From Trichostrongylus colubriformis (taxonomy: Eukaryota; Nematoda; Chromadorea; Rhabditida; Trichostrongylidae), in the NCBI GenBank assembly GCA_963978905.1, contig OZ022261.1:18461582-18525581 (forward strand): a DNA stretch of 64,000 nucleotides, written 5' to 3'. A program made the position numbers and the translations under genes. Every line of letters starts with the position of its first letter. The stretch's first letter is position 1. The notes beneath the pieces were generated by a model. That model had not been told where the DNA came from, did no database searches, and saw only the letters and a list, made by a program, of their open reading frames with translations. Below are positions 16,901 to 63,757 of the stretch, in pieces.

Positions 16901-19900
16901 GTGATTGATTGGTGGATTTCCTTTGTTCACTCATCACTGACACGCTATGTAGCACTCCTTTTGTTGGAGCTAATAATTTAACGAGGATGCGAAGTTTTTA
17001 CCGTTAGTCGATAAATGTCTTTTGCAGAACTTTCTGTTTTTTACACATCGACTTCGACGTTGCCTCGAGTTCGGAGCAGCAAGCGGAGGTTAGAAGTGTG
17101 CAGTGGGAGAAGGAGCTGATAGGGCGCTACTTCGCGTGAGTTTCGACATGTAATGACGTCGCGTAAGCCCTTGTTGCACTACATTTTAACTTAAGTGTTA
17201 AGGAATGGGCTAAATGTCCACAAAAAGTTGATGGGAACTCTTCGTTCGAGTCTGACTGAGTTGAATGTTCAAATTCGTCCTGTTTTGCTCACTTTTTTCG
17301 AGAACATGTTTCATCTGTGCAGCGACTCCGTCTCGATCTGCCATAATTTGAGCCAGTGTCCGTCTGCTGAGTGTGTTGTGCAAAGTTGTCTGGGCTAATT
17401 GTCTTGTGGAATAGTTAGCGTCGTACACTCCCGAAAGGCAAGCGATGGGATCCCTCAACAGTTTCACGTTACGTTACAACGACCAGACCGTACTGCGGAA
17501 TGTTTGGTACCGAGCGCTGTAGTAGACAACAGCATCCACGGCCACTGTAACAAAATCCAGCGTTAGCAACTCTTGAGTCGGCACGTCATACGCCTTCAAT
17601 CTAAAAAAAATGAATTCGGGTATAATATAATAAGTCTGAGATAAGGTTAGAGGCTCTGTTAAAAAATAGGTTGCCGTTCTGTGCCTGTTGTCAACTCACC
17701 GTAAATCAATTATTTGGTATTCATCGACGAAAGGAAATACTAACACAATACCCGGCCCACATGGACGAGAATCCCAGATTTTACCGAGCCGAAAAATCAC
17801 CTGCAAAGATCAAGAATTCATGGACCATTTGTCAAGCTTCCATTTAGTATTCCCGATTGATTTGGTTTTCACAACGGATTGCCTGTGTCACGTGATATGA
17901 GGGGGCAGGCTTTTACTCGACCCACATGGCCAATGCGAATTACGGACTACATGCATGTGTGGTGGCCCTTCTAGCTACTGAGAAGCTTGAATCATCTAAA
18001 CGCATGGTGACTATGAAGGCGAACAGGTCAGATTGTCCACTCGTAATGAGATGTGTTAGGTATCCGAGAATTTTTGGCATATCCATGCACAAAGACAAGA
18101 CGTGTAACACGTTGTGTTGTACTACATACAGAGTAACGTATCACGGCTGCTTTCCATTATCGGTAGTTACGAATATTCAAGATACCCATCTCGAGAACTA
18201 TGCACGCAACCATTAGTGAATCTAAGTGACAACTAGATTTGTCTAAGGAAGTCACTAAGAAAACAGTTTACAGTACTTCGAAAGTGGAGTCTAAGTAAAG
18301 TTTCAAGTATCCAAATATGTCCAGATTTACAAGGGAAGGATGGTAAGTCGAAGTGGCCGTTTGAAATGGGGTTTATACCAATGACAGGGCTCGGGATGCC
18401 ATTCACCAGTCTGCATTCCATATCTGCTGTGCGTTTCTGGGAGCAGAGTTACAAGCGTTGAAAGAGAAGCAACTCAGCACATATGCGATAGGCAAGTACA
18501 ACAGTGTGTCTCGATAGCCAAGTGGTTATGTGCTAGGACTCAGTGGACATGGTTTACACGGACACTAGTCAAATTTGTGTCTCTTCCGAATAATTACAAG
18601 GTTTAATGAAAACCCAGACGAAGTTCGTACAAATGCCGAGTATTCATCAACACAGCTTGCCTTACATTCAAGTGGCAATCTTGGCAGAACTCACATTAGG
18701 CCAAAGGGTCATTGTCATCTATAAAGTGCTGGTTACCACATTTGTTGTAAAATACTATAAAGGCAATGAACGCAGAAGTGGAAATGTACATGATAAAACA
18801 GCGAAAATGGATTCACTTCCTCAGAAATGCTCTTTCGTAGTGATATCAAGCTCTCGGAGCATGAATTGCTCGTTTGTAACGTTCGGGAAGTAATCTGTGA
18901 AAAATGCAAAAACACAGAGTCAACAACGCTCCGAACCCGGTGCCCCCTCGATCCTGCGTCCTAGCCCATAACCACTTGGCTATCGAGACACACTGTTGTA
19001 CTTGCCTATAGCATATGTGTTGAGTTGCTTCTCTTTCAACGCTTGTAACTCTGCTCCCAGAGACGCACAGCAGATATGGAATGCAGAATGGTGAATGGCA
19101 TCCCGAGCCCTATCATTGGTACAAACCCCATTTCAAACGGATACTTCGACTTACCATCCTTCCCTTGTTAGTATGGCGAAGAAACCGTGCCTCAATGTTA
19201 TCGCTGCGATGCTACCGCTACCGACGCGATGATCGCAGTGGAGCGCACTACATGACTCATGTTCAGTTTCTAACTTTACTGTCCTTGTTTTTTCATCCTT
19301 TATCCTTGCCGCATAACTTGCACGACTTTTGAGCCTTCTATTCTGTCATCAGAGGACGGGCCCACAGAAGTAGCGGAACCTGAAGAAGGGGGTCGTATGG
19401 AGCTCGCCTTGAGATAGCACCGTTTTTTAAAATTACCTTCGGCGCCACGCTTGACCCTGGTTATGGACCCTCTCAGCTGATACTCTGCGAAAGATGTTGG
19501 TGGAGCCACTGCTACAGCGTGCTGAGAGCGAAAAATGCTTTCATCTACCAAGGGTGGGGAGAAGTACGCCAAAAAATCGCGTGGCCGCCCGCGACGAGCG
19601 GCGCGGCGATTGCGAGTGCCAGTGATAGTGCTGGCAGCCTTCAAGCGAGACAGTGTGGCAAAGGTGGAGGAGGCAAGGTGGCGTGGCTGGAGGAGGCAGT
19701 GTGGCATGGCTAGAGTGCAGAAGTGACGCAGCCACGCTCTGCTGGGCTCCCAAGAGCAAAATCGATTCGCAAGTCGTACTGGTGGCGCCGCGAGTGCGAC
19801 GGCGATTTCTTGGCGTATTTCCCCCCACCCATCTACCTATAACGCTGTCCGCAAAACGTTACAATTGCTAAAAAGGAGAGGGAAGACACCGCTCCCAAAC

Positions 19901-22900
19901 AATTGCGTTCCACAAGCATAGTGGCTCTATGAATTATTGTTTCTCCGTCGTCCATTCATGAAGAAGGAGGAATTCAAGAAAAGAGGTGATATTGGGAGGG
20001 CCGTGAGTTGGTTCAAAACTTCAAACGCTTTGACTTCTAGAGCGAGTTTCTATTAGGTTGTCCGGAAAGTTTTCGGACTGACGTCGGAGAACATTGTGTA
20101 GTTAGCAACTTTATTGACATCGTGTACCGTAGATTTTGGAGTATTCGTAAGGTCTGAAGTTGGCGTACAGAAAGGTTAGGTCGAGCCCCACAGGTAGCTA
20201 GCACGAGCCATTTGTTCTATGTTTGTGGTCGAGATTTCTTGAGCGATTCGTCACCGTTGTCGAGCTTGTGGTACCAGTAGAAGCACGTCGTGCGACAGGG
20301 GGCTTGCCCCTTTATTGTCTCGCAGCAAAGCGATGGGCCTCGTTCGCGGATCGGCCGGAGTCGTATTGTAGAAGCAGAACTGGTTGGTAGAACATCTCCT
20401 TGTCATCCATTGCGAAGGCACTACTGGGGACAGGAGACGATATGTCGCACATGCTGCTGACAGGTACAAATACCGGACATGAAACACAAATCCCTCAAGT
20501 TAGGTCCGCTCACAACATCGGGTGACAAAGATACAGTAGCGGTCAAAAATACATGCGGTTTTGGACATAACCATAATTTTGGCCGACGTTTACAAACTCT
20601 TTTTTTAGTAATTTGAAGGCAACTGCTACTCCATGAAAAAAGTATCTTAGCCGAGTAGGATGCAGTGTGAAAGTGATAAATTATCTATCTGGAAGCCCTA
20701 AAAATGGCCGAACCCTTCAAAAATTCAACTAGCCATAAAAAGCTTATAACTCAACGAAACAAGCCGTTATGCAAAAAATAGTGCGGAATGAGGCTAGAAC
20801 ATTATTATCCGTCCTTTGGAATCCTGACAGCACCGAAGCGCGGTGTTGATCATTTTCAGTGTTTTCAGTTAAATAATTTTTTCCACCTTCACACTGCACC
20901 CTACTCGGCTGATATACTTTCTTTCTCTGAATGACAGTTGCCTTCAAAACACAAAAAAAAAATTTGAACGTGATATGTAAACGCTGACCAAAGTTATGGT
21001 TAAAATCCGTAACCGCATATATTTTTGACCGCTACTGTATGTTGTTTCGAACCCTACCATGCATTTACTCCGAAAACTTTCCGGTCAACCTAATAGTAAC
21101 GTTCAACTGGAGAAGGGAGGACGTGCAAGCAAGTGTTAAAATTTTTTTGACTGATATGCTCATTAGCTGGAGTTATTGAAATCTGAAAGAAAACGTGTGT
21201 TCTAAGTCAAAAACTCTCCGACCCCCGGATCAAAGTATGAGTCTCGAAATGCTTCGCATCAGTTCCCTTTCCATACTTCCCGAATGACTCAGGGAAAAAG
21301 GTTGGGGGTAGGTGGAACACGAGTTGAAATAAACTTGGGAGAAAGTAATGCATGCTGACTGCTCATGTAATGGACAGATCACTGCCCCGTAGTAGTTCGG
21401 CCACAGGCTCAGACCCCTCGAGGAGTGGGTACCTTTGTCGTCGTGTGAGCGTAGAATGTGCGTATATTCATGTATATAGAAAAATTACGTTCTGTTGAGC
21501 ATTTAGAAGGAATCAAAATTCTTTCACTCATGCTCTTTTTCAAGATTTGAATTATGGGGATAAGGTGACGCTAAAGATACATAGGTCTTCAAGCGGATTT
21601 TCCTTGCACACATCTAAAGAATTTCTTCACACATGTGCAGACACTTGAGTTCGTTTGAATTTTGGGTACCAGACAAAGCTGAGAGCTGTAGGTTTGCTGG
21701 TGCGTTACAAAGTTCCCTCGTTTTTGCTGATGCAGAAGTTGATAACGAAAAGGAGAAATGCCATGTTCTCGGCGAACATGTGCAAATAGGTTGAAAAATT
21801 ATGCTCTTTCGATATTACTGTTCATCCAGCTCATTGTCGTTACTCGAAGAAATCGTCCACAGAAACTTAAGTTCTCCTGCTACGCATATACTGCGCCGCA
21901 AACAAAGTTTCACGCGCATACACATGAATCCAATTGAAGCGACGGGGTAGGGCGTCCGTGAGGGTGTGGATCGAGACTAAGCCTCCGTCGAGGAAATCTC
22001 GACAGGGGGAGGGCGTTGTAATTGTTGAAGTGGCAGTGATCAACGGAATTTTCTATACTGAGGGTCCACAGAGTAAAGGGGAGATGCGATAGAACTGAAA
22101 ACTCGGTTTGAATCCAATCTGATATTTAATTTAATCTTCATTTGAAACTCTCGAAGGACATACAAGGAGCTACCCACACGAACAGAAAACGAGGTAATAC
22201 TTTTATTCGGATAAGTGCTTAAGACGATATCTCGGTATCTTACAAGGGATGGGTTTCAACTTTCCAAGGGACTTTGAATCGAGACCCAGATCAATCGAAG
22301 AGCTCCGAATACTGATTATAACTGTGAAAACCAAAATTGCTAAATGCCATTTTGAAGCGAGTTAGGAGGGGTCAAAGTTTGCTCGTGATGCCTCAATGGC
22401 GAGGCGCGTTGTCATCAGACGGTTTGTCGAAATGGCCATTTGCGATAAGGCACATACTACTGTACGCGCTTTTAAATGCTGATCTCAAATCTCATTCAGA
22501 ATCTGTCAAACAATTACCTGAATGAAGTTATGAAGGTTTTTTTCTGAAAAAAAATAATACTATTTCGTGGCATGTTTGGGAGCCCATAGCGCGCGAGTCA
22601 TACGTGTTCACGCAAAACCAGTGTGATTTTCGTGTTCAGGGGATCAAATTACCCCTTGCGACAAGTTTTCAGCCAAGAGAATTTGACCAAATCTCGAAAA
22701 ATTTGATGGGCTATTTGGCTGGCAACCCATGCAACAAAGGAGAAGTCGTTGAACCTTGTCCAGCAAATGCTCTTATTTGGCGCTTGTTACGTGCGTTAGT
22801 GTGATGGGCAAGTGTAATAGGTATGTTTAGGTTATCTTGTTCAGCTTACAGGATTTTTTGTGGAAGGAAATTCAAAAACTCCTACTTAACCCCTGGCCAC

Positions 22901-25900
22901 CCTTAATTTTCCGTAGTTGGGCCAAAAACTGGATCCGGCTGGAAACTTGCACAGAGTGGTAACTCGACCCCCCGCGCGAATATCATATAAGGAAACGTTT
23001 AGAAGTGAAAGAAAAGCTTTTACTGACGAGGAAACACGAAATGCAAAAAGTGCGCTCCGACGGGGAGCAAACACATGATCTTGCGCCTATAGAACAGGCA
23101 CACCACCACTAAGCCACGGAGGTCGGTGTTGTCTCAAAGCTGGTCATGCTTATGACGAAGCGCCTCGCCATTGAGGCATCACAAGCAAATTTTGACCCCT
23201 CCTGATTGGCTTCAAAATGGCATTTAGCAATTTTGGTCTTCACAGTTATCAGTATTTAGAGCTCTATCCATTGATCTGGGTCTCAACTCAAAGTTCCATG
23301 GGAACTTGAAACCCCTCCCTTGTTAGAGACGGGAGCGAGACAACGCAAACGATACACAGAGCCAAAAGCTAGGCTGATCTCCTAGTCCTTTCGCAATTGT
23401 GGTCTTTGAGCTAGGTGTCAAGCTTCTGCGACCAAACGCTCATAATTCCTACTGTGGTGCGAAGTTAACACTCGATACCTTGTTCACAGCGCAAAATTCC
23501 AAGGCGGCCACAAGAATAGTGTACCCTTCACTCTGATGAATCCTCAATGGAAACCTCCCAACGCTAATAGCCCTTTCGTTGGTCCGTTGGCAACGTAACC
23601 ACAAGACCTCCGAAGTTCACCGATTATCCACGGATCTCCTTCACCGAGGCGCTTCTCTCGCTGAAGGATCTCAAGCCGTTAGAGGTGGCGAGGCTACGTG
23701 GCGCGACCCCAGGTCGCGGATAGGCGGCTAATCGCGGACCAGAAGCCATGACGTACCTGCCCTGGGACGCAGGTGAATTCAGAGGATGGATTCCTTGTTT
23801 CGGCTGTGCTGGGCTGGTTCATACCCTCTGTATCTATGCAGACGTTTCTGCATACGTGTGGGAGCGTTCTGTATTGTGCAGTTGGTATCCTCTTTCGGTC
23901 CAGCCAAAAGCTTGATACTAACGGCTGGGAGGTACATGGGAGGCCCTCCGGGGTCGCCTCCAATAAATAAACTTTAAGTCCATTTTGGGATAGCCTGGCT
24001 AACTGCGCGGTGTATACCCAGCCCCCAAGACAGAGCTTGACAAGCTACTCGTAGGTCTCCATCTCGCTGAAAACAGCAGTAAGGATGAGCCTCATTCCCC
24101 TGAACCTGAGGGAGCCCACAGTACGGCAGCGGTGGGTAGGACCACTCGGGAGAGGCTGCTAAAATCTCAGGGCCACAACAAGCTGCCTGAATCGAGAAGG
24201 ACAAGAAGGCGATATGTACTAACAACGCACGAACCCTTGCATCGGAAGCGAGAACCGAAGATCTGATGAGGCCAGGAAGATCAAGTACGACAACATCGGA
24301 CTGACCGAGACGAGAAGGCATCGCCCACTACACGCCGTGTACGAGACTGATGAAGAACCGTTCCTTGGAACATGCGACAGGAGAGGCGCTGGCGGGGTTC
24401 ACGACGCACTTGGCCATGTACATCGATTCGTAGAAAATCTGACAACCCGAATCGGACGCTTGTTATTGAAGAGATGTGGCTCTTCAATAAGCCCGGCTTT
24501 GAATATCTTCGTCGCCTATGCACCACATCAAGCTACGACGAGGACGAGCTCGAAGCGTTTTATGTGGAATTGGAGAAGTTCTATAAGGAAGACCACACCT
24601 TCTTCAAGGTCATCTTTGGCGACTTCAGCGCCAAGATCGGCCCTAGAAGAACGGACAATGAGCTTCTCATCGGGACTTGAGTTTATTATGTAGATCAACT
24701 CCATCCATGGTAACTCACAGTTCCAAAAGCCCTCTCATCTGCGATGGACTTGTGAGTCACCCGGTGGACAACTTCATAATAAGATCGATCACGTCATCTT
24801 CAATCGAAGGTTTTGCTTGACTGACGTCGCTGTTGTCCCGAAGTTGTATACGGGATCAGATCATCGACTCATCGGCGCGAAACTCTTCCTTTTGATACGT
24901 GGAGAGAAAGCCGCGAAATTCAAGGAGCGAAGACCCAAGACAGTCATCATGGAACTCTCCGTTTCTCACGCAGGTGTATATGAGGATTCCGATGTATCGA
25001 CGACAAGTACAACCGGCTCGTAGAGGATCTTCACGATTGTGCCAGGAGGGCAGAGTTTGGAAGTCACCAAGAGGCGTCTCTCTGCGGAAACTTTCGAGCT
25101 GATACGCCAACGTGCGTGGAGCCGCACGAGCCGCAGGCGATTACCAACTGACGTCCGAACTTGCGAGGCAATGCAGAATGGCGATAAAAGTAGATCTCAA
25201 GGAGAGAAGAGCAGCAGTGCTAGCTGAAGCAGCGGAGGCTGGAAGGAGCATCCGCAATGCCCGCCGAAGTTTCGCTAGTTATAAGACCAAAATGACCGGT
25301 CTCCGGCGTCCGGACGGTACAGTTACTGCTTCCCGAAGAGCCATAGAGAAGGTCATCCTCGACTTACTTGGATCTCATCGATAGCCATGTCCAACTGTCT
25401 AGGAGCAATCTGAAGCAGGATGGATATGTCGTACCATAGTTCCTCCTGCAAAGTCCGAAACGCCATTTCGTCGGTGAAAAATGGTAGCAAGCGAAAGCAC
25501 CCGACCGAGACAGGATCAGACCAGCGGGGCCGTGTTGCTGTATAAGAAGGGAGATGTACACGACATAGGCAATTATCGTCCAATGTGTCTGCTGTCTGTA
25601 GTCCACAAACTCTTTACTCGTGTCATCTTGAATAGGATCGGTTGAACTTTAAAAGAAGGACACCCATGTGGGCAAGCAGGGCTTCGGAGAGGGTTCAGCA
25701 CAATCGATCACATTCACACGGTCACTAGACTCATCGAAGTTTCGCGAGATACAAGATGCCCTTATGTCTCACATTCATTTGAAGAAAGCCTTTGAATACG
25801 TTGAGACAGAAGCGGTTATCGAAGCCCTGAGAAACCAGGGTGTGCTTACCCAGTACATAAGACTACTTCGTGAGCTCTACAGCAACTTCACGAACACGAT

Positions 25901-30787: not shown

Positions 30788-31046
30788 ACGGCAGCACACG
30801 ACAGCTACACTTACAATGGCGCGTCACGTGATGCGTCGGACCATCGCCGTGACGTCAGGTATGGCGTGCCCCGGAAAGTACGTCCACCACAAAACTCAAC
30901 GCGGTAGTTGACCGATTTTTCTGGCATTCTGGTCAATTCATACTTTTTCTACTCTTTCATACTTGGCTCCTCTACTTTCGTATTCGACTATAGATCACAT
31001 CTTTTGCAGTACCTTCGACGTTGCTCCCAATCATCACTGGACCTTA

Positions 31047-32207
31047 CAAGGGAAGGATGGTAAGTCGAAGTGGCCGTTTGAAATGGGGTTTATACCAATG
31101 ATAGGGCTCGGGATGCCATTCACCAATCTGCATTCCATATCTGCTGTCCGTCTCTGGGAGCAGAGTTACAAGCGTTGAAAGAGAAGAACCTCACAAGGGA
31201 AGAACCCCAGGTCGAAGTGGCCATTCAGAATGGGATACACATGGTCCGACGTATTTTCGGACGCTGATCCCGAATCTGTATTCAAAATTCGCAGAACGAT
31301 TTTCTGAGCGGAGTTATGGAGGTTTTTTGGAAAAGCAGTACTATTATATGGTAGGTTTGAAAGCCCATAGCACGCGAGCCAGACATTCTTGCGCAAAACC
31401 AGGGCGATTTTCGTGTTCAGGGAGTCAAATTACCCAATGGACAAGTTTTTAGCCAATTCGAGGATTTGACCAAATTTCGGAAAAATTCACGGGCTATTAT
31501 TGGGTGGCAGCGCATTGGACAAAGGAGAAGTCGTTGACCCTTGCCTAGGAAGTGCTCCTATTTGACGCTTGTTTCGTACATTTAGTGGGATGGGCAAGTG
31601 TAAAAGGTATGTGTAGGATATCTTGTTCAGGTTGCAGGGTTTTTTGTAGAAGAAAATTCAAAAACTACCACTTCACCCCTTGGCCACCCCTAATTTTCCG
31701 AAGTCGGACCAAAAACTGGATTTGGCTGAGAATTTGCACAGAGGGGTAATTCGACCCCCTGTGCGCGAATGTCATAATCTTTTTACGCAACAACGCCCAA
31801 TTCGTGTGGTACGGGATTCCTTCGACTTGGTATCTTTCCCTTGTGAGTAATGTTAGTAGTTGGCAGAGTAAATGATGGGTGCGATAGGTACCAGTACAAG
31901 GAAACGTCCAGTAGTGAAAGAAAAGCACTTACTGACAATGAAACACAAAATGCAAAAAAAGCCGCACCAGCGGGGAGCAAACCCGTAGCCCCTGGCCTGC
32001 AGATCCGAAACACTACCTGTAAGCCACGTAGGCCGTTGCTTGGAGCTGCAACGGCCGTGCTGATGACATAGTGCCTCGCAAATTGTAACTCTGCTCCCAG
32101 AGACGGACAGCAGATATGGAATGCAGATTGGTGAATGGCATCCCGAGCCCTATCATTGGTATAAACCCCATTTCAAACGGCCACTTCGACTTACCATCCT
32201 TCCCTTG
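31047..32207. mobile_element. Harbinger-like foldback element with nested insert
   Basis: Outer arms 31047-31188 and 32083-32207 match the element at 18330-19167 almost base for base, with TTA on both flanks. A further inverted-end unit (ACAAGGGAAGAACCCC ... TATCTTTCCCTTGT, 31193-31845) and a SINE-like module occupy the inside. Confidence 0.85.
31953..32036 (-). repeat. tRNA-like SINE module, copy 2
   Basis: The minus strand reads GGCCTACGTGGCTTACAGG, then TCGGATCTGCAGG, GGGTTTGCTCCCCGC and a T7 run (Pol III stop) before GCATTTTGTGTTTC. The tail down to about 31850 matches the copy at 42191-42310 in inverse orientation. Confidence 0.6.
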
Positions 32208-32658
32208 TTAGAACGGGCGTTGTAAGGGCATATGAGAAACTGCTCTGTAGAGGATCTGCACTCCCTTTACAACACATTGGCTAAGTTCCAAGCACAGAAC
32301 TTTCATCTTTTTATCGGAAGTCATTTTCATAACGATCTCAATGATTATTCCTCAATGACAATTATTTCGACCCAGTTATGCCCTCTCCCCACCTTATGTT
32401 TGACTAACCCCCATGAAATTTCTTCGTTCTGCAAAAATAAGACACAGAGTGAAAAGGTTTGAAGCATTAGCTGAAAGCAGGTATGAACTGAACGTTGCTT
32501 TGTTATTAGTTTAAGGCTGGAACCAAAAGATGGTATTATACAGATGAAGTAGGCGTTCGCTGTTAGATTGGCTCACAAATTTCAAACCACGAGCGCCTCC
32601 GCTTTGGTTTGGTTTGAAGTTGATACATTAAGCTATTACTCTGTCCAATCTGGCCAAC

Positions 32659-41799: not shown

Positions 41800-41938
41800 A
41801 CAAACCGTGCCGACGTCTTCCACCAGAGCGAATTAGGTGGATCGAGGGTGGGTAGACGGAGTTCTTTAATGATATTGGATCCAGGGCCAAGTCCACTCTC
41901 TATCCGAAGAAACGACCGAGTTTTGCGTTTACTTACAA

Positions 41939-42956
41939 GGGAAGGACCCCAGGTCGAAGTGGCCATTCGGAATGAGATGCATCTGGTCCGATCTCTTTTC
42001 GGACGCCGACCTCGAATCTGCATTCCGAATTTGCAAAACGATTCTCTGAGCGGAGTTATGGAGGTTTTTTTGAATGATCGGTTCATCAGCATGGCCGTTG
42101 CTAAGTAGCCAACGGCCTCAGCGGCTCAGTGGTAGTGCTCCGGATCTGCAGGAGAGGGATCGAGGGTTTGCTGCCCGCCAGTGCGGGTTTTTTTGCATTT
42201 TGTGTTTCATTGTCAGTAAGTGCTTTTATTCCACTTCTGGATGTTTCCTTGGACTGGTACCTATCACACCCATCATTTACTCTGCCACTTTATTTATAAC
42301 TGCTAACATTACTCACAAGGGAAGGATACCAAGTCGAAGAGAATCCCGTACCACACGTATTAGGCGTTTTTGCGTGAAGAGATTATGATATTCGTGCACA
42401 GGGGGTCGAATTACCCCTCTGTGCAAATTTTCAGCCAAATCCATTTTTGGTCCAACTTCGGAAAATTGGGGGTGGCCAGGTTATAAAGTGGTAGATTTTG
42501 AATTTTCTTCTACAGCCAACCTGAACAAGATAGCCCACACATACCTTTTACACTTGCCCATCGCACTAAATGTTCGAAACAAGCGTCAATTAGGAGCATT
42601 TCCTAAACAAGGGTCAACGACTTCTCCTTCGTTCAATGGGCTGCCACCCTATAGCCCGTAAATTTTTCCGAAATTTGGTCAAATTCTCGAATCGGCTAAA
42701 AACTTGTCTTCTGGGGTAATTTGACTCCCTGAACACGAAAATCTTCCTGGTTTTGCGCAAGAAGGTCTGGCTCGCGTGCTATGGGCTTCCAAACCTACCA
42801 CAATAGTATTGTTTTTTCAAAAAAACCTCCATAACTCCGCTCAGAGAATCGTTTTGCAAATTTCGAATACAGATTCGAGATCAGCGTCCGAAAATACGTC
42901 GGATCATATGTATCCCATTCCGAATGGCCACTTCGACCTGTGGTCCTTCCCTTGTT
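41939..42956. mobile_element. Harbinger-like foldback element carrying a SINE-like insert
   Basis: CAAGGGAAGGACCCCAGG at the left and its inverse GGTCCTTCCCTTG at the right are flanked by TTA. The terminal arms (about 140 bp) share CAAAACGATTCTCTGAGCGG. The inside holds a tRNA-like module (42109-42191) with its tail to about 42310, and sequence inverse to 31400-31845. Confidence 0.85.
42109..42191 (+). repeat. tRNA-like SINE module, copy 3
   Basis: GGCCTCAGCGGCTCAGTGG (D-arm/A-box type), CCGGATCTGCAGG, GGGTTTGCTGCCCGCC at the T-arm position, and a T7 run at about 42185 before GCATTTTGTGTTTC. This is the clearest of the three copies. Confidence 0.62.
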
Positions 42957-43689
42957 AGGAGGGTAGTGGCGAACACAACACAACCAACCGCCGCTTCTGA
43001 CACTCGCACTGAAAATGTTGACCAGTTGGCAAGGGTCACTTTTTTATTAACCCTGAAAACCGGCAACACTCAGCTTTCCCATGGCACATCACATAGCATC
43101 AATGCAGTAACTTTCCGTAAAGTTGTGGGAGGTCTAGAGTGATTGAGAGATTTGCTACGACACACGACGCGACGCGATAAGGGCCTGCAAGCCATTTATA
43201 TCGCTGATCAGCGGTCATTACCCAATATACCATTCACATGCACACTTCATGAAGAATCTGAACCGGTGTTCGGAGCCGAGGTGAAGTTTATATTGACATC
43301 ATTTGCTATTTACGCTCAATAGATACTATAGACGGCTTCATGATTACGACCTGACTTACGAACAACGGCAGGGATTTGGACAAGTGCGCCAGTTAGTATC
43401 GAACGATGCAATAAGCGTCTTGGTGATAAAAGTGTGAAGTTCGTGGTTACACCGTTCACTAGCCGCCGTGAGGTGACCAAGCTTCAATAGCGAGATCCCT
43501 CCATATACCGTTGCGTCACCTTTGAAGACTTTATAACACATAGCAGACGTTTCAAACATGTATGAAAGACAGTGGGAACAACTGCTAGAGAAGACAGGAA
43601 GCTGAGGTCGAGACTCGAACTGGATAACCTCAGTTGTTCTGGCTTTTATAGCCTTATCAAGACCCACTAACCTGCTCTAAAGGACAAGT

Positions 43690-52200: not shown

Positions 52201-55200
52201 TGGTTCACATCTCCTTGCGCGGGATGATCGGATCAGTATGATTAGATACAGACAACACATGACTTGCGGCCACTACTTACCCCTTATTATCAAAAATTTG
52301 CAGGCATCGCATCACTTCTCTCGTATGAGCCACCAGGCTTTGCTCCCTATTGTTCACGGCTTCAGCAAGCAGTGTGCGCAGCAACATGACCAGCTGTTCA
52401 CGCTCATTCTCCATTTTCATACCGCTGAAACAAATAAAGCTAGATTTACAGAACTCAGTCAACCTGAATTCATCGAAGTATATCATTCGCCAGAAGAACT
52501 TTTTATTTTGAACTCTTACCGACAGGTGCCGCCAAATGGCATTGAAGGCAGATTACCAACACTGCTCAATACGAGCCGCAGCTTCCTTTTCGCATCCAGA
52601 AATGCCCTGCAACAGCTCTGACACAGTACTATAATACAGAAATATTAGTCACGTTTTTCGAACAGATTTTACCTGCATTCGGTGAGATTATCCGGTGAAT
52701 AGTATGCGATCACTTGCTCAGAAGGTGCACTTTCGGACGCTGAGGATGCGAGTTCAACCGGTGGCTGCACTTCATCTGCGAAATGTGTAATAGTGGGTTG
52801 GTATTTTGCCAAGATGTCATCGGCAGAACGCTGATCGAAGTCTGAAAAAAGTCCATCGAGGTTCTTGCTCAGTGTCAGTTCGTGTTCAGTGGACCAATAA
52901 TTTCATTGTCTCCTGTTCGGCCTGTTCAGTTTAAGCCTCACATCAAATCTGGGACCCTCCCTCCAGACCATCATTGGCAGGAGGGAAGGATGGGATATCC
53001 GCAGGACCTTCCCTCGCCTAGCGAAAGCACGACACCCCTTTCAAGGAGAACAAGCTGTATTCCTTTACCCCTTGAGCTATAACCGCTGAAGCAGCTACCA
53101 AGGGGTGCTCAGATTTTCATACTTGCAAATAGACACGATGACATCATGCGACCATAAATGATAACATCCAAATTGATATGAAAACAGGTAAAAAAAAGAC
53201 CGACTAGCGATGTGATTTTCACTTTGACTGTTCGGTATCGCTGGATGGTTTGATTCGTTTTCCCGTCTAGATGAATTCCATTCACTCAGCAGATCCGAAA
53301 TAGTTGATGAATGCGGTATCTGACGGAACGATGAGCCAGTCATACCTGAAGTGATACACCAATACATTTTGTTGAAATTCATAATGTGAATTGTAGACAA
53401 TAGCATGTTGCCTTATACTAACCTTTTCTCACTTTGTCACCGACTTTCAAAAGACCCTGCTGGAAAAGAGCGAATTTCTTGCGACCAGAATTAGAAGGCG
53501 ACGATGGATCATAGTAATGCTCGACGTCGTGAGCGCTCCCTATGGCCGAGGAGTGTGAAGGCGAGCTGAACGAAGACGCGCATGCTCCGGAAGGTCCAGG
53601 TTGATCACCAGACTGTTGTTTTTGGGGCTGAATATAATTGAATGTCATAGGATCTGCGATTCCGGATGAAAGCAGTTTTTATCCTACGAAGACTATTCCA
53701 GCAACACTTGTATAGATGAGTGGCTCATCGAATATTATTTCGTTTCCTTGGCAAGCAAAGCAAAAAACGCAATAACTTTTTTGAACCACCAAAGATAACG
53801 AAGATGACCACGTTAGGCAAGATATCCTTGCTATATGATGGAGCTACTTTCAAAGAGACGGTCTGTGGCGAAATCCGTACAGAAAGGCGCATCCTACACT
53901 CGTTATCCAGACCTAGACGTGGCTCGCAGTTGCGGGTTTGATGCGGTGGGCTCCGACCGCGGAGTGCCCGTGGAGGTCGGGGTGACGCTGGCGATGTGGT
54001 GTATTTCAAGCGCTGCTCGCCGGCAGTGACTACGCACCGAGGGTTAGCACACCAAAATATATTTATCGAGGAGAATATGCGCAATTTGTGGTGGAATGCA
54101 TAGAAACATGCCTTCGCTATAAGTAGTTCAGCAGGAAGCAAGGTTTCGAGTAGCAGGGTTAGTAGCTGAGCGTTCTCATCCTCGTGATCTTTCACTACTA
54201 GACTATTTTGCAATCATCAATCTCTACTCAAACATGTGTCACTACCTGTGCTTCAGGAGAGATAGGGATTTCCTTAGCTTGGTATGAACATTTGTAGTGA
54301 GCACCTCTTTATCAGAGCACGCCGCCCGCTGAAGGAGGTCTCACTCAAAGGAATCGTCCACGGAAAAATGTTTTTCTGTTACCCATATTTATGTTGTATT
54401 TGCCTAATGTGGGCCGCAAAGTTCTACGCGAAATAGTGGGAGTTCGGCTAAGATACAGCTTCCCCAATTCCCGGCCGGGTGGGCGGGGTCTCCAAGTAAA
54501 AGCTCCACCCCGTCGTCCGCCGCGGTAGGGAACGGTGAGTGGGACTGTTTACGTAAGTTTCTGTTCCTAGAATGCGCCTTCGACCGCGGCGGACGACGGA
54601 ATGGGCACCTGCTCTTACAAGGAAAGGCTCCCGGGTCACCGTGAGCATTCAAGATGAGTTGAATGTGTTCCTATGTAATCTCAACCGGGGATCTCAAATC
54701 TGCCCTCCAAATCTGCTAAACGATTCTGGGAGCGGAGTTGTGGAGCTTTTTCTGAATAACTGGTACTATTAGGTTGTCCCAAAAGTCTTGTAGGATTTTT
54801 CCAAAAAAAAATCAGTAACTCTTGTTCACTTCGAGGCAGGTTCAGGCGGTTCGGGGATATGGTAGAACATTCTCTGAGCTTTCTAGCAAAATATATATTG
54901 ACCCACCAGATTCCGTGGAGAGAGCTACAATGCCCGTAGTCGATACCCATCCAACACGCGGTGTCATCTACTATGGGTGGTCTGTGGCACCAAAGGGACG
55001 GAACCTTGCCACTCCATCAACGCTGCATTGAGCAAGGGATGTGTGAGCTACGAGACCGTGCGCCGCTGGTTCATCAGTTTCAGCAAAGGCGAGATTGCCA
55101 CGGGAGACAAACCACGCTTGGGTACTGGTTCTGGGACGCGGAAGGCATGGTTTTCCGCAAGGTGCTGGTACAAGGCGAGACAGTCACCGCTGCCGTATGC

Positions 55201-58200
55201 ACCCACCAGCTCCAGCATCTCGCCGTCGCTGTTCGAGAAAAGTGCCGGAAAAGTCCGCTGTCACTTCATGACGACGCCCGCTCCCATTTCGCTCCCATTT
55301 TGCGAAAAGTACCCAGGCCAGGCTACAGGAGCTCGGCTGGGATGTGCTGCCCCATCCGCCATACTCTCCAGACATTGCCCCTTCCGACTATCACCTTACC
55401 CATCCTCTTGAAACCTTCCTGGCCAAGAAAAAATTCGTTGATTATGACTTGCTTGCAGAAACGATCGCTGACTTCTTCGACTCTGAGAACCCACAGTTCT
55501 GGGAGGAGGGAACCAACAATCTACCTATGAGGTGGCAAAGCGTTGTCGATAACAATGGTCCATACGCTGTTGCCTAATTGTTGTTTGTTGGAGCAAAGAT
55601 AATAAAATGTGATGATCGAAAAAAATCCTACAAGACTTTTGGGACAACCTAATATTACATAGTACGTTCGGAAGTCTATGGCGCGCGAGCCAGACGTTTT
55701 CGCGCAAAATCAGTGTGATTTCCGTTTTCAGGGGATCAAACTACCACACTGGACAAGTTTTTGGCCAATTCGAAAAATTGGAAAATGTGACAGAATTTCG
55801 AAAAAATTCATGAGCTACTGGTTGCAACCCATTCAACGAAAGAGAAGTCGTTGACCCTTGCCGAGAAAATGCCTTTATTTGACGCCTGTTACGTATACTT
55901 TTGTCATGAGCACCTGTAATAGATATGTCCGGGTTATCTTTTTTCAGAATGCACGATTTTTTGTAGAAAAAAAAATCAAAATACTGCTCACCCCTTCAGT
56001 ACCCCTAATTTTCCGAAGTTGGACCAAAAACTCGATTTGGCTGAAAATTTGCACAGAGGTGTAATTCGAGCCCCTGAACGCACGAATATCATAGTCGTTT
56101 TCCGCAACAACGCCTAATTCCCCACAATCGCAGAGTAATTGGGTAAAAAAGATGGGCAGAATGTTCGATTATTCAGAAAAGAACCAATATCTCCATATTA
56201 CTCATCAGTGGGGGCGCGAGATACTTTAACGGAGCATGAAAGCGTTTTGCAAACGTTCAGAAAACACTCAAAGCAAAAGCATAACTAGCAAATGCGTCAA
56301 GGATTCGAGCTCTCATGCTCCAATTTGTGCCGCGACACCTTACCAGCTGCTCCATCCGAGCTCCGACAACAGTTTGTCTCGAGTCATATATGACCAGCGC
56401 CTACGCTTGCGCCGTATCTTTCAGGCCCCCGTAACTTCCTTCGCAGAATCGTTTAGCAGATTTGAGATCCCCGTTTGAAACTACATAGCTACAAATACAA
56501 CTCATCTTAAATGGCCACGGTGACCCGGGAGCCTTTCGCCGAGATTTTGGGGAACTTTATCATAGCTGAATTCCCATTATTTCGCGTGGAACTTTACGGC
56601 CCACATTAGGCAGATACAGCATAAATATACGGGTAACAGAAAACCGTGGACGATTCCTTCAAAAGCTGCAAATTACCTGAACTCATCTTGGCGTGCCTTC
56701 GCCGCGCAATCTGGCCGGGAAATTTGGAGACGAATTACAGAATTCTCGCATTGAACTGAGAACATCGCAGCGCACAGGCGGCCACTGTGGGCGCAGTGGC
56801 ACATGGTGCACTTGCGCTCTCTACATTTTGGACCACGCCCACCCAAGCAGGATTTGACCCAACATCTGCGACTTGCTTTCTGGCAAAACCGAGAATCGTG
56901 CGAACAGACAGACATACGAACAAATAGTATACCAACAAACTACTGGTTTATAGACAGGTTACTTATGGTCCAGCATGTTTTCGGACGCTGATCTGGAATC
57001 TGTTATCCGAATTTGCAAAACGATTATCTAAGCAGGGTTACAAGATCCCATCTCGACGAACGTCGGCTCAAGTACACCACAGGAGAGTGAAGTGTCAGCA
57101 GCCGCCGATCAGATAGGTCAGTGTCACGGTCCATAAGCTGAGGGTGTTATTTACGTTATAATATACATATGATGCAGAAAAAGTCCAGGCGAGCAAAAAT
57201 GATGCATGTAGGAAGGTGAAGAGCATAGAAAATGGAATGAATGCATGCAAAATGTTATTATCCATGGGGAATTGAAAACACTCTAATGAACTAAATGTAA
57301 CCGAATCCTGCCTATTGAGATGAAAACAATTCGAAAAAGCTCAATATAGTGGTTAAATGACTAAAAATAGGCTTAGATAAGGTAGCCACCCTTCTTACGC
57401 AATTACACGCGAATCTCGTCGAGGGCAGTCAACTCGCGCGCAAATGTCGCGCGGAGAACGTCACTAAGCGAAATCTTGGCATGAGGGTACACACCCATCT
57501 TACACACATATACCTACCGTATACTTTCTAGACTATCGACCTTCACCCCTTCAGTTTAGGAGCGCGTCACTTACCTCTGTGCCAGGCGGCTGCTCCCTAT
57601 GGTGTACTTGATCCCGCGTCCATCGAAAAGGATCTTGTAACTTCGCTCAGAGAAACGTATTGCAAATTTGGATAGTGGATTCGAGATCAGCGTCCGAAAA
57701 TACGTGGAACCATAAGCATCCCAGTACAAGCGGTCACTTCTACCTCGGGTTCTTTCCTTGTGAGAAATGACTTCGAGCATGGATGTGTGGATTTGTCTGT
57801 GAAACTGAGAGAAGTGTTCCAGCTGCGAAAGGTTCAGCCCCCTCTGCTGGATGGATGCTTGAAAAATGGTTCATCCTCCCGAAATCCTCCTGCATATAGC
57901 AAAAACTAAAAATGTCACCTGCATTCATTCGAGTCATTTGCAGCTCTTTAGATGCACTTGCAAAGCATGCTTACTCTCAGTTACATAGTGTCTAAAGAAC
58001 TTATCAACTGCAAGAGGGCCGTCACACTAGCTCCGCTCAATAAGGTTGTAGTTGACGACGGGCATTCCACTGCGCTCGACGTACGGCGCCATTTTTTGCT
58101 GGGCTTTGGCCTGAACTCGAATGAGGAGAACCCCCATCTCCCCCCATATGAGGCTTAGGTAATACACTTTAGTGCACAAACTGATGATTGTACAATGGCA

Positions 58201-61200
58201 CCAGGCGAGCAACAACAACGGGCGAATGAGTGACCCCAACACCCCAATACCTTACCACCTACATAACTTGTTATTGAGGAGAAATCGCGTTTTGACGTCT
58301 ATTTGTGTTATATGGACATGTTGGTCAATCTGGGCTTAGCTTACTCAAGTCACCCATAGTGCGCAATCATGGCCAGCGAGCAGTGGTGGAACATACTATA
58401 TCAACACTAGCGTCGCCGTTTGTCCAAAGCATTCGGTAAAATCAGTGGAGGGAAAAGGTCAGGATTTAGTCACACTCCTACCTGTGTCCGCGCGGCGGTA
58501 AGTGAATCGGTTGGTCCTGCACGCTCTCGATCTTCTCTGAAACTGAAAAGAGATTCCGTTTTTGAGATATAAAAGATAAAATGAGTATAAGGAGTTGAAA
58601 AGAAAAGAAAATGGTACGAAAACGTTGAGACAGAGTTGGTGCGCACAGAATGCCTATTTATGATAAGAAAAAGTGTGAGATAAAATCTCGAACTCAAATA
58701 TTAATTGCTTGAAACAAACTTGCTCATCTCCGAATCCGCTTCACTACGGCTGTAAGAGAACGAGCTACCACTACTGTGCCTTCGCAGTCTTCCACCACCA
58801 TCACCATGTTGAGGGACATCGACAAGAGGTTGCACACTGACACAGGGAACCGCAATATGCTAAACATTTCCAAAACAATAACTGGAAGAATACATAAAAA
58901 TTTCTGCCAACATACCGATGCTGCTGCATCAGAACTACCATTGCGTTCTGCCCTAGATATGTCGTAGGTAACATCCGCAACCTTAAAAAAGCATTTTGAG
59001 CTCACATAATCGGAGCAACAATCCTACTGATCCTATCAACGACCAGAGTCTGGTAGTAATGTGACCAGATTCACCCAGGCGCGCTCGAGGACGTGTGCAC
59101 CTTTAGTCCATAAAGTACACGGTAAGATAATTACACGGCTACTGTAGGTCACTTCGCACCTCACCTCGCAACCCCTAGCCCTGCCTGTAGGGTTACCTAA
59201 TTGATTTCTTCCACCTACTGTTAATCATCGTGATGCATGAAGTAATGTACATGTACACGGGGAAAGTTGAAAGTGTATAAATAAAGGAGTTCATTCGCAA
59301 TTTGCAGTAGCACCTCATTGGTACAAACCAAACTCTCGAGTTCAAACCAGTACGCGTCACCCATGTGTGCCTGAAATATTCTCTTCGCCAGCTAATTAAA
59401 ACATTAAGGGTTAATAAACATATCACTTGCCTCTAGAAGAATTAATTCATATGGTGAACGTCTCGCACCTGTACTTGACAAGATGTCTCTTTTTATCCAT
59501 AACTTTGAAAGGTCATGCAAGGAGGTTTTATATAGGTTCGATGAGCACAGTTAATTCCTCATCATGGGTGTTAGTTTCGTATAAGAATTCTTCCAAACAT
59601 ACACTGCAATACTCTACTCCAAGATTCTGCCACTCCCATCACCCCAGCACAGCCGCATGCGTTCTACGTGGATCACCTGTGCATAGATTCTACTACACCA
59701 CCTCTCACGTCGCTCACCCAATGTTTTCAGATTATGCGCCTTTCCCTCCCTCATCTTACTACGGCCTAAACATGTAACGCCTCCTGTCGTATGTGGCTTC
59801 AGCATCATCACAAATCCCATTTTTCACAACATCGGTCTCGTTTCATAAGCAGCTTCTGTCTCCTTCCCATCACTAGTCCCTCAGCGGCCCTCAACTTCAA
59901 CTCCATTACCTGCTTTCCTTTCAGAATTGATCACCTACCAGCCCACAACTACAACTGGTGCTTGCACATTTATGTCTACATGCCACACGCGGCACCCCTG
60001 ATCCCCTCTATGTTGCACCCTCACCTTTACCTCACGCACCCAATTATGTCCTATGAGTTAGATCCTCTAGAGGCGAGGGAGATGTTTGTTTACCAATAGT
60101 GCATTGATTAGCTCACAAAGAGAATATTTTTAGGCACCCATGCGTGGTGCGATCATGGGTTACTGATAAAACTTGAGAGTTTGGTTTGTATCAACGAAGT
60201 GTTATAAACTGCAAAGTATGAATGAATTTCTTTATTTATACACTTTCACCCTTCCCGTGTTTATGTGCATTACTTCATATGGTCAACAGTGGATGGAAGA
60301 AATCAAATAGGGTAGCCCTACAGGCAGGGCTAGGGGATGCGAGGTGAAGTGAGAAGTAACCTACAATAATCCTGTAATTATCCCACTGATATTGGGTTGG
60401 GGAATAAGTTCCCGCGGTTTTTTTAACCCCGTTTTTCACATTGTTTCCTTCATCTTTCGGTGAAGCTAATATATGTTTTCGATAGAGCTTTTTTTGCTCT
60501 ACAAAAGCTACTATCTATTTTCCGATTCCTTTGACTACCTAATATCTATGAGGTTTGGAAACGAAGTAAGCTGAAGGCAAAAATTGGCACTCTCGACACC
60601 TCATCTTCCTAGTCTACCATCGGAATCGAAAAATGCAAGTGTATATGTTTTCGATAGAGCTTTTTCAGCTCTAAAGAATGGTACTACTTTTTACTCAAAT
60701 CGCTCAACTTTTCGCTGTTTTTAACACTCACAAATGCAGTACTCGCGAGGAAGTGCACTTTCGTTATCTCCCCTTCCTCGCCTACCGTCGAGATTGAAGA
60801 GGATGTTCATACATGCATTCGATAGAGCTTTTTTTGCTCTACAAGATGATGCCACACATCTTTTAAATCCTGTCATATTTTAGCATGTAAGGATAAGTTT
60901 CCACCTTTTTTTTCAACTCAAAATTGCGTAATGAAAATTAATTTTTTTGGCAGAGTGTTTTGTATCATTTGATAGAGGTCTTTTCGCTCTACGAGATAGT
61001 GCTTATGGTTTTTGTTCAAATTATTTTTTGCTATTTTTTAGATCATTTTAAAGGAATGACAAATCGACGAAATCGCGCATTTTCGTGTCGATCATGCTCG
61101 ATTTCGCCGATTTGGCACTCCTTTGAAATGATCTAAAAAATAGCAAAAAATAATTTGAACAAAAACCATAAGCACTATCTCGTAGAGCGAAAAGAGCTCT

Positions 61201-63757
61201 ATCAAATGATACAAAACACTTTACCAAAAAATTAATTTTCATAACGCAATTCTGAGTTGAAAAAAAGGTGGAAACTTATCCTTAAATGCTAAAATATGGC
61301 AGGATTTAAAAGATCTGTGGCATCATCTTGTAGAGCGAAAAAAGCTCTATCGAATGCATGTATGAACATCCTCTCCAATCTCGACGGTAGGTGAGGAAGG
61401 GGAGATAACGAAAGTGCACACTCTTGCAATGTACCGCATTTGTGAGTCTTAAAAACGCAAAAAGTTGAGGGATTCGAATAAAAAGTAGTACCATTCTGTA
61501 GAGCTGAAAAAGATCTAACGAAAACATATACACTTGCATTTTTCGATCTCGATGGTGGACTAGGAAGATGAGGTGTCGAGAGTGCCAATTTTTGCCTTCA
61601 GCTTACTTCGTTTCCAAACCTCATAGATATTAGGTAGTCAAAGGAATCGAAAAACAGACAGTAGCATTTGTAGAGCAAAAAAAGCTCTATCGAAAACATA
61701 TACAAACTTTACCGAAAGATGAAGGAAAACAATGTGAAAAACGGGGTTAAAAAATCGCGGGACCTTATTCCCCAACCCAATACTTTATGGACTAAAGATC
61801 ATCACCCCTCGAGACGGATAACGAAGATCCTCAGGATCCAGCCTCCGGATAAGAACAGATCTGATTATACCTCATTCACCAGGCGACCACAAAAAAAAGA
61901 GATTTTCTGGATACCCCGTCTAATGACTGGCCACCGTATGGGCCAAACACCCAACGTATTGAACAAAAGTGCTGCGACGATTGCAACAGTATTGCAATAC
62001 TCAATGACTGACACCTACTAAGCCGGTTGTAGGACGTACCTATGAATATCTTGCGAAGCCGCGACTATGCGAAATTGCTGCGTCGCATTTGCAGCGACGC
62101 ATAGGGCATGCAAAGCCGTGCGCACTTTTACTCAAAGTCAGCATTAGGCATGATATGGTCAATGGAAAATTTCTAAAATATTCATTCACATAGAAACTAT
62201 GGGCCTGAGAAGACTATTCTTGGCGGAATTCCCATCAAAAAGCATGCTCCCGAGCTGTAGTGACGGTGTAGTGGATAAGACCTCGCCTTTGATAAGTCAT
62301 CCCGCCTCCTAGGGTCGACTTTACCGAAGAATGATTGAAGTATAGAGTTATAAGTGTGATAGCAGAATGGTGTTATCGTATCGATTAAGCCGTATCAATC
62401 GGAATGACGTGGTGCTTGACGTGTAAGTTTCGTGATAAAAAGATCCACCGGTCAGTATCAAAGATTGGAAGGAATGAAACAATCGAATTACCCCTAACGC
62501 TGCTTTTAGACATTCTCATCGCGACTTCCCCTCAGTAATGCTGCACTGTATACCATTCACCCAGAGATAAAAGGCCCCGAGTACTGTGCCGTGGCGCTTG
62601 CGATTCTACGGCTTAGTGCAATCGACACGTATCCAAGCCGTAATATGGTGCCTGTGTTTGTTTGCCGCGCGGAACATAAAAAATAAAAAATAACAAGAAT
62701 CCACGAGCCTGTCGCCCTCGCTCACGGCCACCGTCTGCTTCGGAGTCGCTTGCTATTGCATCCAAAGACCACGTGTCACTTCGGTCCTCTGTAGCTGCAT
62801 TGGCTCCGCAAAGTGAACCCGTACTGAACAACGTGGCTCATTATCACGTTCTACAGAGCGAAATGCTACAAAAGAAGAACTACCGATTAACAGCGCGTCC
62901 TCGCTGACCGCTGCCGTCGGGTGCATCGACTGAGGGAAGCTGTGGTAGCAGCGGCAAGGATGGACCTTCATCATCAGATGGCACTACATTTGTCGACCAG
63001 CTGTCAGACAACAATGACCTCTGATCATCACCTGAAAAAGCTACAATGACATCCAAGGCAAAAACAGTACTTATGAAGACATTGAAAATTCAAGGTAACC
63101 AACGTCTATTTTGCTGTGACATCGGCACAGTAAATTTCCCAAACTTCTCCTCGAGCCCTTCCGCATTCTGCTTTCGCACAGCAACCGGTACTCCAGATGG
63201 CAGCACTCGTTGTGCAGCATCTGTTTCGCCGCCTGCTGCGGTAGAGATCGCTCCAAGATCGGCCATTTCTGAAAACGGCGGCTTTCATAAATCCCTGAGA
63301 ATACAGCAATTTATGATGTGAAGCTTACCATTTTCTTGGCCATCCCGGATTCCTTGACTAGGTGCTTGACTCAACGGGGATTCTCGTCCATCAAGGCTCG
63401 CTGAACCACGCCCACTAAGCCCAGTTTCATCGACATCGGATACGTTGTCAGGAATAGTTGAAGCACCATCTTCATCAAGCAGAAGCATTCTAAAAAAGTG
63501 GACACCACATTTACATTTAAATAACCATCTCAGATGCAAAGGTTTTTGTGCATGTCGTAGCATTCGATTTTTGTCCAAGACTGGTTCAGCGATTTCAATT
63601 ATGCACAAAGAACTCAGATTTCAAGTTTTCAAAAGTTACCTGTCTTCCTGGGGAGCTTCTAAACTACTTGATATTGATCCCACTTCCTGCTGCTCAGCAC
63701 CATCTTCTTCAAGATCTGAGGCATTATCTGGAGTGCGATCGGAAACAGCTGATCCAA
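47207..63757 (-). CDS. rme-6: RME-6/GAPVD1 orthologue (Rab5 GEF), 3' part of gene
   Basis: Exons in coding order: 63640-63757, 63329-63489, 63104-63268, 62884-63031, 62726-62823 (3' edge unsure), 58916-58981, 58720-58859, 58482-58536, a doubtful one near 57775-57889, 53423-53627, 53223-53345, 52673-52841, 52557-52628, 52281-52424, 49142-49276, 48899-49013, 48515-48705, 48165-48237, 47586-47683, 47416-47515, 47207-47338. Phases agree within three blocks (63757 to the start of the exon at 62823; 58981-58482; and 53627-47207). Recognition comes from the VPS9 end (IERVFMAQIHALAFYPN, GEAPWPSAQAEI, DDVTPVLVYVLIQANPP, WWTQFTAAIEFIK) and NNREQSLVAHTREVMRCL, which match GAPVD1. Exons to the right encode the Ser/Asp-rich linker (SDTWS, SDSEAD). 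RME-6 activates Rab5 on clathrin-coated pits. The RasGAP-like N terminus lies outside the window. Introns hold palindromes and nested transposons. Confidence 0.93.
50900..51090. mobile_element. 191-bp palindromic MITE with TA duplication
   Basis: GTCAGGCTGCA at the left and TGCAGCCTGAC at the right are flanked by TA (50898-50899, 51091-51092). The arms match for about 90 bp (GGTGCGCTATC, GGCGCTACACCT). A half copy lies near 33653-33730. It sits in the 3-kb rme-6 intron between exons 52281-52424 and 49142-49276. Confidence 0.85.
51091..52280. other. rme-6 intron sequence without gene
   Basis: A plus-strand open frame at 51601-51876 is A+T-rich and Phe/Leu/Ser-rich near its start, with no domain and opposite strand to the host gene. 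Confidence 0.4.
53015..53095 (-). repeat. tRNA-like word in an rme-6 intron
   Basis: The minus strand reads AGCGGTTATAGCTCAAGGGG (A-box type), then a CTTGTTCTCC anticodon-arm-like stretch. The T arm is degraded. This is probably the head of an old SINE. Confidence 0.35.
54618..56537. mobile_element. Harbinger-like foldback, interrupted by mariner, right end cut
   Basis: The left end CAAGGAAAGGCTCCCGGG is preceded by TTA. The right part 55990-56537 is a full match to the right arm of the element at 12195-13651 (same tRNA-like word and CACGGTGACCCGGGAGCC), but the last bases CTTG are missing. A mariner copy lies at 54769-55652. Confidence 0.8.
54769..55652 (+). pseudogene. Mariner transposase copy, internally deleted
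   Basis: The ends TTAGGTTGTCCCAAAAGTC and their inverse are flanked by TA (54767-54768, 55653-55654). In three frames the plus strand reads HTH text (SYETVRRWFISFSKGE, 55040-55090), the second catalytic Asp context (LHDDARSHFA, about 55264) and the third (LPHPPYSPDIAPSDYHL, about 55345), then a C-terminal tail (FWEEGTNNLPMRWQSVV). At 884 bp it is about 400 bp short of a full mariner; the region with the first catalytic Asp is deleted. Confidence 0.92.
56955..57766. mobile_element. Decayed Harbinger-like foldback
   Basis: TTTCGGACGCTGATCTGGAATC...CAAAACGATTATCTAAGC at the left is inverted at the right (57620-57740), which ends TTCTTTCCTTG followed by TGA. The inner arms also match (GATCCC...CAAGTACACC). 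It belongs with 31193-31845 and 41939-42956. Confidence 0.65.
59137..60365. mobile_element. Foldback element, arms about 255 bp
   Basis: The left arm 59137-59395 is inverted at 60112-60365. Shared words include CCTAGCCCTGCCTGTAGGG, TTGATTTCTTCCA, GAAAGTGTATAAATAAAG and CAAACCAAACTCTC. The centre (59400-60110) has two plus-strand open frames (59427-59777, 59791-60099), rich in His/Ser/Pro, with no recognised domain. The class is unknown. Confidence 0.78.
60392..61780. mobile_element. 1.39-kb near-perfect palindrome with TA ends and periodic hairpins
   Basis: TTGGGTTGGGGAATAAG at the left and its inverse at the right are flanked by TA on both sides, a Tc1/mariner-type target. The arms of about 690 bp agree at nearly every base around a centre near 61086. 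Each arm repeats a small hairpin, TAGAGC-T7-GCTCTA or variants, at about 60483, 60655, 60823 and 60973 and at the mirror positions 61183, 61331, 61500 and 61671. No transposase is present. It lies in an rme-6 intron. Confidence 0.93.
61781..62725. other. rme-6 intron stretch, weak tRNA-like word
   Basis: No exon that restores phase between 62726 and 58981 could be proven here. A degraded tRNA-like word (GGTGTAGTGGATAAGACC, about 62268) is present. Confidence 0.35.

Follow-up and report, generated by a model that had tools for sequence, protein, structure and literature searches.

A palindromic transposon family with mariner-type ends in Trichostrongylus colubriformis, its co-evolving arms and its mirrored internal dyads

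Palindromic transposons are common, and to our knowledge the question of why they remain palindromic is not settled. It is raised here by an element of 1389 bp in a stretch of 64,000 nucleotides from the nematode Trichostrongylus colubriformis, the whole of which was analysed and is referred to below as the window. The complete element occupies exactly 60392–61780, the ends proposed for it in an earlier note on this DNA, and full-length copies elsewhere have the same two ends. It consists of a left arm (60392–61086, plus strand) and a right arm (61087–61780, minus strand) without a spacer, and it is flanked by TA at 60390–60391 and 61781–61782, the two halves of a target-site duplication, which the note had also observed. 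A mariner-type terminal repeat, TTGGGTTGGGGAATAAGTTCCCGCG, which has matches genome-wide, forms the left end (60392–60416, plus strand) and recurs with one mismatch at the right end (61756–61780, minus strand). The centre (61074–61100) is asymmetric, with CGCGCATTTTCGTG on one side and CGAGCATGATCGA on the other, and this asymmetry is conserved in the family. When aligned, with one extra base included at the right end, the arms are identical at 645 of 699 columns (92.3%), with 46 mismatches and 8 gap columns. The palindrome is therefore real and well above the arm identity of about 80% that the earlier note had set as a lower limit, but an identity of 92–93% falls short of its description as near-perfect.

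Within the palindrome the motif TAGAGC-N7-GCTCTA occurs at eight sites, six of them perfect and two with one mismatch, so that four mirrored dyads lie in each arm as inverted repeats within an inverted repeat. Dyads 1–4 of the left arm are at 60483–60501, 60655–60673, 60823–60841 and 60973–60991 (plus strand; the last has one stem mismatch), and those of the right arm, from dyad 4 outwards to dyad 1, are at 61183–61201, 61331–61349, 61499–61517 (one stem mismatch) and 61671–61689 (minus strand). Their spacing is 172, 168 and 150 bp in the left arm and 148, 168 and 172 bp in the right, mirrored across the centre, which bears out the regular series of four hairpins per arm first read from the sequence, at intervals of 148–172 bp. 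At up to two mismatches the whole window holds 10 such sites, compared with 1.74 expected, and none of 100 shuffles reached 10.

An insertion can be recognised from a paralogous empty site. A repeat at 59126–59451 (minus strand) matches the left flank of the element (60052–60382) at 77% and runs on into the right flank past the element, with a single TA (59116–59117, minus strand) in the element's place, indicating that the element inserted there and duplicated the TA. In the genome assembly (331 Mb in 52 contigs, six of them chromosome-sized), a similarity search in which 40 of 2390 candidates were scored found the window copy and at least 39 other places. When these 39 were retrieved, 29 proved to be full length and 10 partial; the partial copies were excluded from the analysis of arms, which covers the 29 full copies and the window copy, i.e. 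30 copies and 60 arms. The full copies are 1360–1418 bp long (n=30), and TA is present on both sides of the window copy and of 28 of the 29 others, the exception being L022 with CA on its left, so the further TA-flanked copies that the earlier note proposed to look for do exist. Pattern searches of the whole genome gave 80 matches to the palindrome centre at up to two mismatches (about half of them were retrieved), 1188+1188 = 2376 matches to the ends at up to three mismatches, 1991+1986 = 3977 exact matches to the dyad CGATAGAGC-N7-GCTCTACNA, and 228+231 matches to an arm 34-mer at up to three mismatches; the reversed-pattern controls gave 0 in each case. Palindromes are generally error-prone in assemblies, and an inverted duplicate created by the assembler might be suspected here. 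We give that virtually no chance and have rejected it, as 54 of 699 columns distinguish one arm from the other, and the element ends precisely and has a TA duplication, an empty site and 39 other places in the genome.

The family also has an older subfamily. Arm 34-mers carrying one common change, with no listed partner, were considered as a possible mark of an autonomous parent and rejected in that role; the 20 loci of this kind that were retrieved come from an older subfamily, palindromic for the most part, whose ends read TTGGGTTGAGG, and many of these loci carry internal deletions. Several old copies have no palindrome centre, among them L053, L055, L062, L064, L066 and L068 (997–1075 bp). 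From the 20 stretches fourteen old elements entered the analysis, solely to determine arm identity and to build a majority sequence, and in these the coverage of the arms drops from 27 of 28 to 11 of 28 toward the centre. Of six clustered centres on contig C6, the three retrieved were all degraded remnants and of no use for the timing test described below.

With respect to class, the TA target-site duplication, seen both in the empty site and in the TA-flanked copies, is that of Tc1/mariner elements. By eye, the family end TTGGGTTGGGGAATAAGTTCC resembles TTAGGTTGTGTACAAAGTCTTC of L074, a mariner with an open frame, as well as the TTAGGTTGTC... ends of two other elements in the window (16095–16731 and 54763–55658); no match at few mismatches was found between the family ends and those of four transposase-bearing elements. 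The search for an autonomous partner, in which 150 of 7219 first-look candidates were scored, led to four mariner copies that were inspected, all with other ends. The element is non-coding, its arms showing no similarity to four transposases (tblastn, best E 1.3), and it has many copies of similar length, all of which is typical of MITEs, but at 1389 bp it exceeds their miniature size of under about 600 bp. It also shares with foldback elements its long inverted repeats with internal repeats, but duplicates TA only and not the 7–10 bp of Galileo and Tetris. The end patterns and a stricter form of the dyad had no match in viral contigs, where the dyad itself had five matches (best E 0.67 among the BLAST matches listed), and no match to the dyad was found in the genome_contigs set. 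At least dozens of mariner copies, distributed over all six large contigs, have one and the same score and an open frame of 345 aa, and they perhaps represent a recently active autonomous mariner.

The window contains a number of other repeats. Another TA-flanked palindrome, likewise with mariner-type ends (TTAGGTTG), lies at 16095–16731, and in its arms part of a mariner transposase occurs in mirror image (tblastn with L071, E 1e-10 and 4e-7); no dyad match lies inside it in the window scan at up to two mismatches, and it looks as if one end of an autonomous element had been turned into a palindrome. At 54763–55658 there is a TA-flanked mariner with 38-bp ends that are 97% alike and a transposase spread over several frames (Mos1 HTH match, Pfam). 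Long-arm inverted-repeat elements with arms 86–99% alike are found at 12225–13593, 18321–19176, 22235–23330, 31043–32211 and 41932–42958, the last four all with TACAAGGGA near their ends. At 798–1366 a 145-bp unit is repeated in tandem (3.9 copies with 95% matches), and 4774–6027 and 8982–9578 hold RNase H, integrase zinc-binding and integrase core domains of a retroelement and, apart from these, a piece of reverse transcriptase (Pfam).

Partner arms within a copy resemble each other more closely than they resemble the arms of other copies. Across the 30 copies arm identity is 94.1% within a copy compared to 88.7% between copies; the nearest of the 59 other arms is the partner for 44 of the 60 arms (49 when 11-mers are compared without alignment), and in a tree built without the centre the arms are sisters in 24 copies, but not in L013, L019, L027, L029, L030 and L033. 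Identical departures from the majority sequence in both arms of a copy number 744, against 177±26 in 200 random re-pairings, the largest of which gave 254. Likewise, the loop letters are identical in 11 of 12 mirrored dyad pairs, a comparison of 64 dyads among the listed matches of the 3977 that was confined to clusters with at least two concentric pairs. At the centre, two adjacent columns hold TT in one arm and GA in its partner in all 30 copies, and in two further columns the arms differ in 25 of 30 and 29 of 29 copies, the fixed left/right difference being confined to the innermost ~11 bp per side. Judged from the sequences, the 30 full copies thus descend from one founding palindrome with an asymmetric centre, which gives each copy an orientation.

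With the copies oriented by their centre, arms of different copies diverge by the same amount whether they lie on the same side or on opposite sides, the two values being no more than 0.002 apart in any bin up to column 680; they separate in columns 680–697 (0.075 for the same side, 0.291 for opposite sides). The likeness between partner arms peaks in the middle of the arm (columns 350–400: 0.037 within versus 0.139 between copies). At the tip, columns 0–50, the corresponding values of 0.056 and 0.063 hardly differ, and the same holds for columns 650–680 (0.068 versus about 0.088). Partner likeness is slight at the tip because the lineages themselves hardly differ there; near the centre, where the arms differ in 9–11 of 30 copies at several columns from 649 to 682, homogenisation itself may fade. 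What these divergences demonstrate is homogenisation of the arm middle, and not of the very ends.

The timing of this process can be addressed with L041 and L042, which represent one insertion duplicated together with its flanks (98.1–98.8% identical). Among the 551 arm sites that can be compared, both duplicates retain 45 older differences between arms, a count that includes the fixed centre columns, and the later changes comprise 20 single ones, each in one of the four arms, and one paired. This ratio of 1:20 differs from the 744:1182 of the family (p=0.001), where the counts are not independent because copies share ancestry; for private changes alone, 0:6 against 125:330, there is no difference (p=0.20). 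The 20 new bases are private in 6 cases, shared with one or two copies in 4 and with more in 10, a spectrum similar to that of the single changes in the 30 copies (330/359/492; p=0.59), so that single changes have the appearance of post-insertion decay, and paired changes that of events preceding insertion. Because the arms changed independently after the duplication, homogenisation seems, from this one duplicated insertion, to have taken place before insertion or in the course of it, and the same case argues that arms mostly decay independently afterwards.

If the inverted repeats of a resident element underwent ordinary gene conversion, like those of large chromosomal palindromes and unrelated to jumping, just such concerted evolution with an unconverted centre would be expected, and the single paired change in L041/L042 could be an event of this kind, as could possible erasures at two further sites where the "new" base is the one common in the family. 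We nevertheless consider conversion a rather doubtful explanation, since the duplicated insertion kept its 45 arm differences and only 1 of its 21 later sites is paired, compared with 744:1182 in the family (p=0.001). The pattern suggests, instead, that one arm was used to restore the other around the time of a jump.

The dyads pose a second question, whether they serve any function. The earlier note saw the arms as tandem units that were then mirrored, and this stands for a 37-bp core around the dyads: in the left arm, units 1–3 match one another at 29–32 of 37 positions and unit 4 matches the others at 21–27. Outside the core, however, likeness is limited to units 2 and 3 (72% over 94 columns, some of them core columns; shuffle z 2.4, a weak value). 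The mirrored, repeated core is real, and makes the element more than a plain palindromic MITE, in agreement with the note's remark that a simple MITE does not explain the hairpins. Differences between the arms of the window copy fall in 6 of 148 core columns and 48 of 551 others (p=0.08), and of the eight dyads, folded singly, six exceed shuffles in stability (z below −2) and the remaining two do not.

Divergence between the arms of one copy approximates decay after insertion, and the excess of divergence between copies approximates change before it. The estimates of decay come to 0.059 for the first 26 bp, 0.051 for dyad stems, 0.043 for loops and 0.048 for other sites; those for the 12 bp that flank the dyads on each side are a little higher (0.075 and 0.076). 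Pre-insertion change, with bootstrap ranges, is 0.006 (−0.001 to 0.019) in the 26-bp ends, 0.027 (0.015–0.039) in the stems, 0.044 (0.030–0.064) in the loops and 0.064 (0.049–0.087) elsewhere, with 0.055 in the 12 bp before the dyads and 0.100 in the 12 bp after them. Dyad stems have therefore undergone 2.4 times less change before insertion than the rest at similar decay after it, and their pre-insertion divergence is below that of 99.8% of 5000 random site sets. From this reduced change we infer that the dyads were constrained during the mobile phase.

That the dyads are neutral leftovers of an old mirrored tandem repeat is, in our estimation, unlikely. Some tandem duplication is indicated by the likeness of units 2 and 3 beyond the core, and the stems stand out only moderately for low raw diversity, with 5 of 121 slid site sets lying lower. 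However, besides the lower pre-insertion change of the stems, the majority sequences of the young and old subfamilies differ at none of 76 dyad sites and at 36 of 543 others (p=0.015; for stems alone, 0 of 48, p=0.10, not significant), and cores are conserved in units 1–3 while their surroundings mostly are not. Changes in the stems comprise 98 one-sided and 6 compensatory cells, and of the 15 kinds of change common to both arms one is compensatory; in the 30 copies and the comparison of subfamily majorities covariation was weak, with none clear. As stem changes are mostly one-sided, a protein-bound dyad would fit at least as well as a folded one.

The palindrome might alternatively be maintained as a natural double-stranded RNA locus, from whose transcript small RNAs would arise that silence transposons or a gene. 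The minus strand does fold end to end: its transcript is predicted to form one duplex of ~690 bp (MFE −1089.4 kcal/mol), in line with the very long double strand foreseen in the earlier note, and Made1 palindromes are described as having given rise to human mir-548 genes, in the part of the source available (PMC1784062). If selection acted on the double-stranded RNA of a resident locus, however, the arms would have to be kept alike, against which L041/L042, the one case tested, speaks, and the 20 Rfam matches, mostly to miRNA families, are all below gathering scores. We regard this explanation as quite improbable; the family, the empty site and the co-evolution of arms within copies point to a mobile element first, with double-stranded RNA as a possible by-product. 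The placement of the palindrome in an intron of rme-6 found no backing, since ten minus-strand ORFs gave no VPS9 or RasGAP match; the same ten had only two Pfam matches, far below cut-offs, and no homologue of the ORF at 63288–63620 was found.

The explanation that we favour, and consider probable, is that of a non-autonomous palindromic transposon with mariner-type ends and a TA target, whose arms were restored while it was mobile and whose dyads were selected as accessory sites. Its ends and TA target suggest that a mariner-type transposase would bind the ends and mobilise the element in trans. During the mobile phase the arms of each lineage appear to have been kept alike; the likeliest means are the repair of a single strand folded back into a hairpin, or a switch of template from arm to arm in transposition-linked repair. 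Such repair would restore the stem while the central loop escapes, and once inserted the arms would mostly decay independently. The four dyads per arm were presumably selected in the mobile phase, likeliest as accessory sites for the transposase or a host factor, and the folding of transcripts into long double-stranded RNA would be a consequence of the design and not the reason for it. A stronger form, put forward only tentatively, is a self-proofreading transposon in which the arms act as mutual spare copies and the folded strand is repaired to its mirror image around each jump. If true, damage to an end or dyad in one arm could be erased before the next insertion, and palindromy would give an element that lacks coding capacity a design for correcting errors. 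In either case the fixed central asymmetry supplies each copy with an internal control and an orientation, making homogenisation measurable, placeable along the arm and timeable against insertion, and the division of change into before and after insertion can reveal internal sites needed for mobility without an assay, here pointing to the dyad as functional.

Among known systems, Tc6 and other palindromic repeats of Caenorhabditis elegans are, like the window element, Tc1/mariner-like and from a nematode. The hookworm mariner bandit has the same TA target and Tc1/mariner affiliation, with 32-bp inverted ends, but encodes a transposase, and a palindrome is not described for it in the available part of its report (PMC2041818). 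Made1, derived from the mariner Hsmar1, is closer in being a non-autonomous near-perfect palindrome with mariner ends and fold-back transcripts (PMC1784062, in part), but it is 80 bp long with two 37-bp ends, whereas the present element has 1389 bp, internal dyads and arms that co-evolve within a copy. Such co-evolution in mariner-type palindromes was not found in the literature searched, mostly without subscription papers, and the nearest statement concerns the Drosophila foldback element Tetris, in which, in the accessible portions of the papers, repeats cluster together in two of three complete copies and homogenisation is named as possible (PMC4079207, PMC4168063). Tetris and Galileo resemble the element in that their long inverted repeats contain internal ones, which are TIR-220 in Tetris and ~140-bp repeats in one Galileo copy (same sources, as far as available), and differ in their 7–10-bp target duplications and in belonging to other superfamilies, compared with TA and mariner-type ends here. 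According to the Tetris paper, again in its available part, the internal repeats of Galileo hold additional transposase binding sites (PMC4079207), and by analogy these are the nearest precedent for the repeated internal sites that the dyads may represent.
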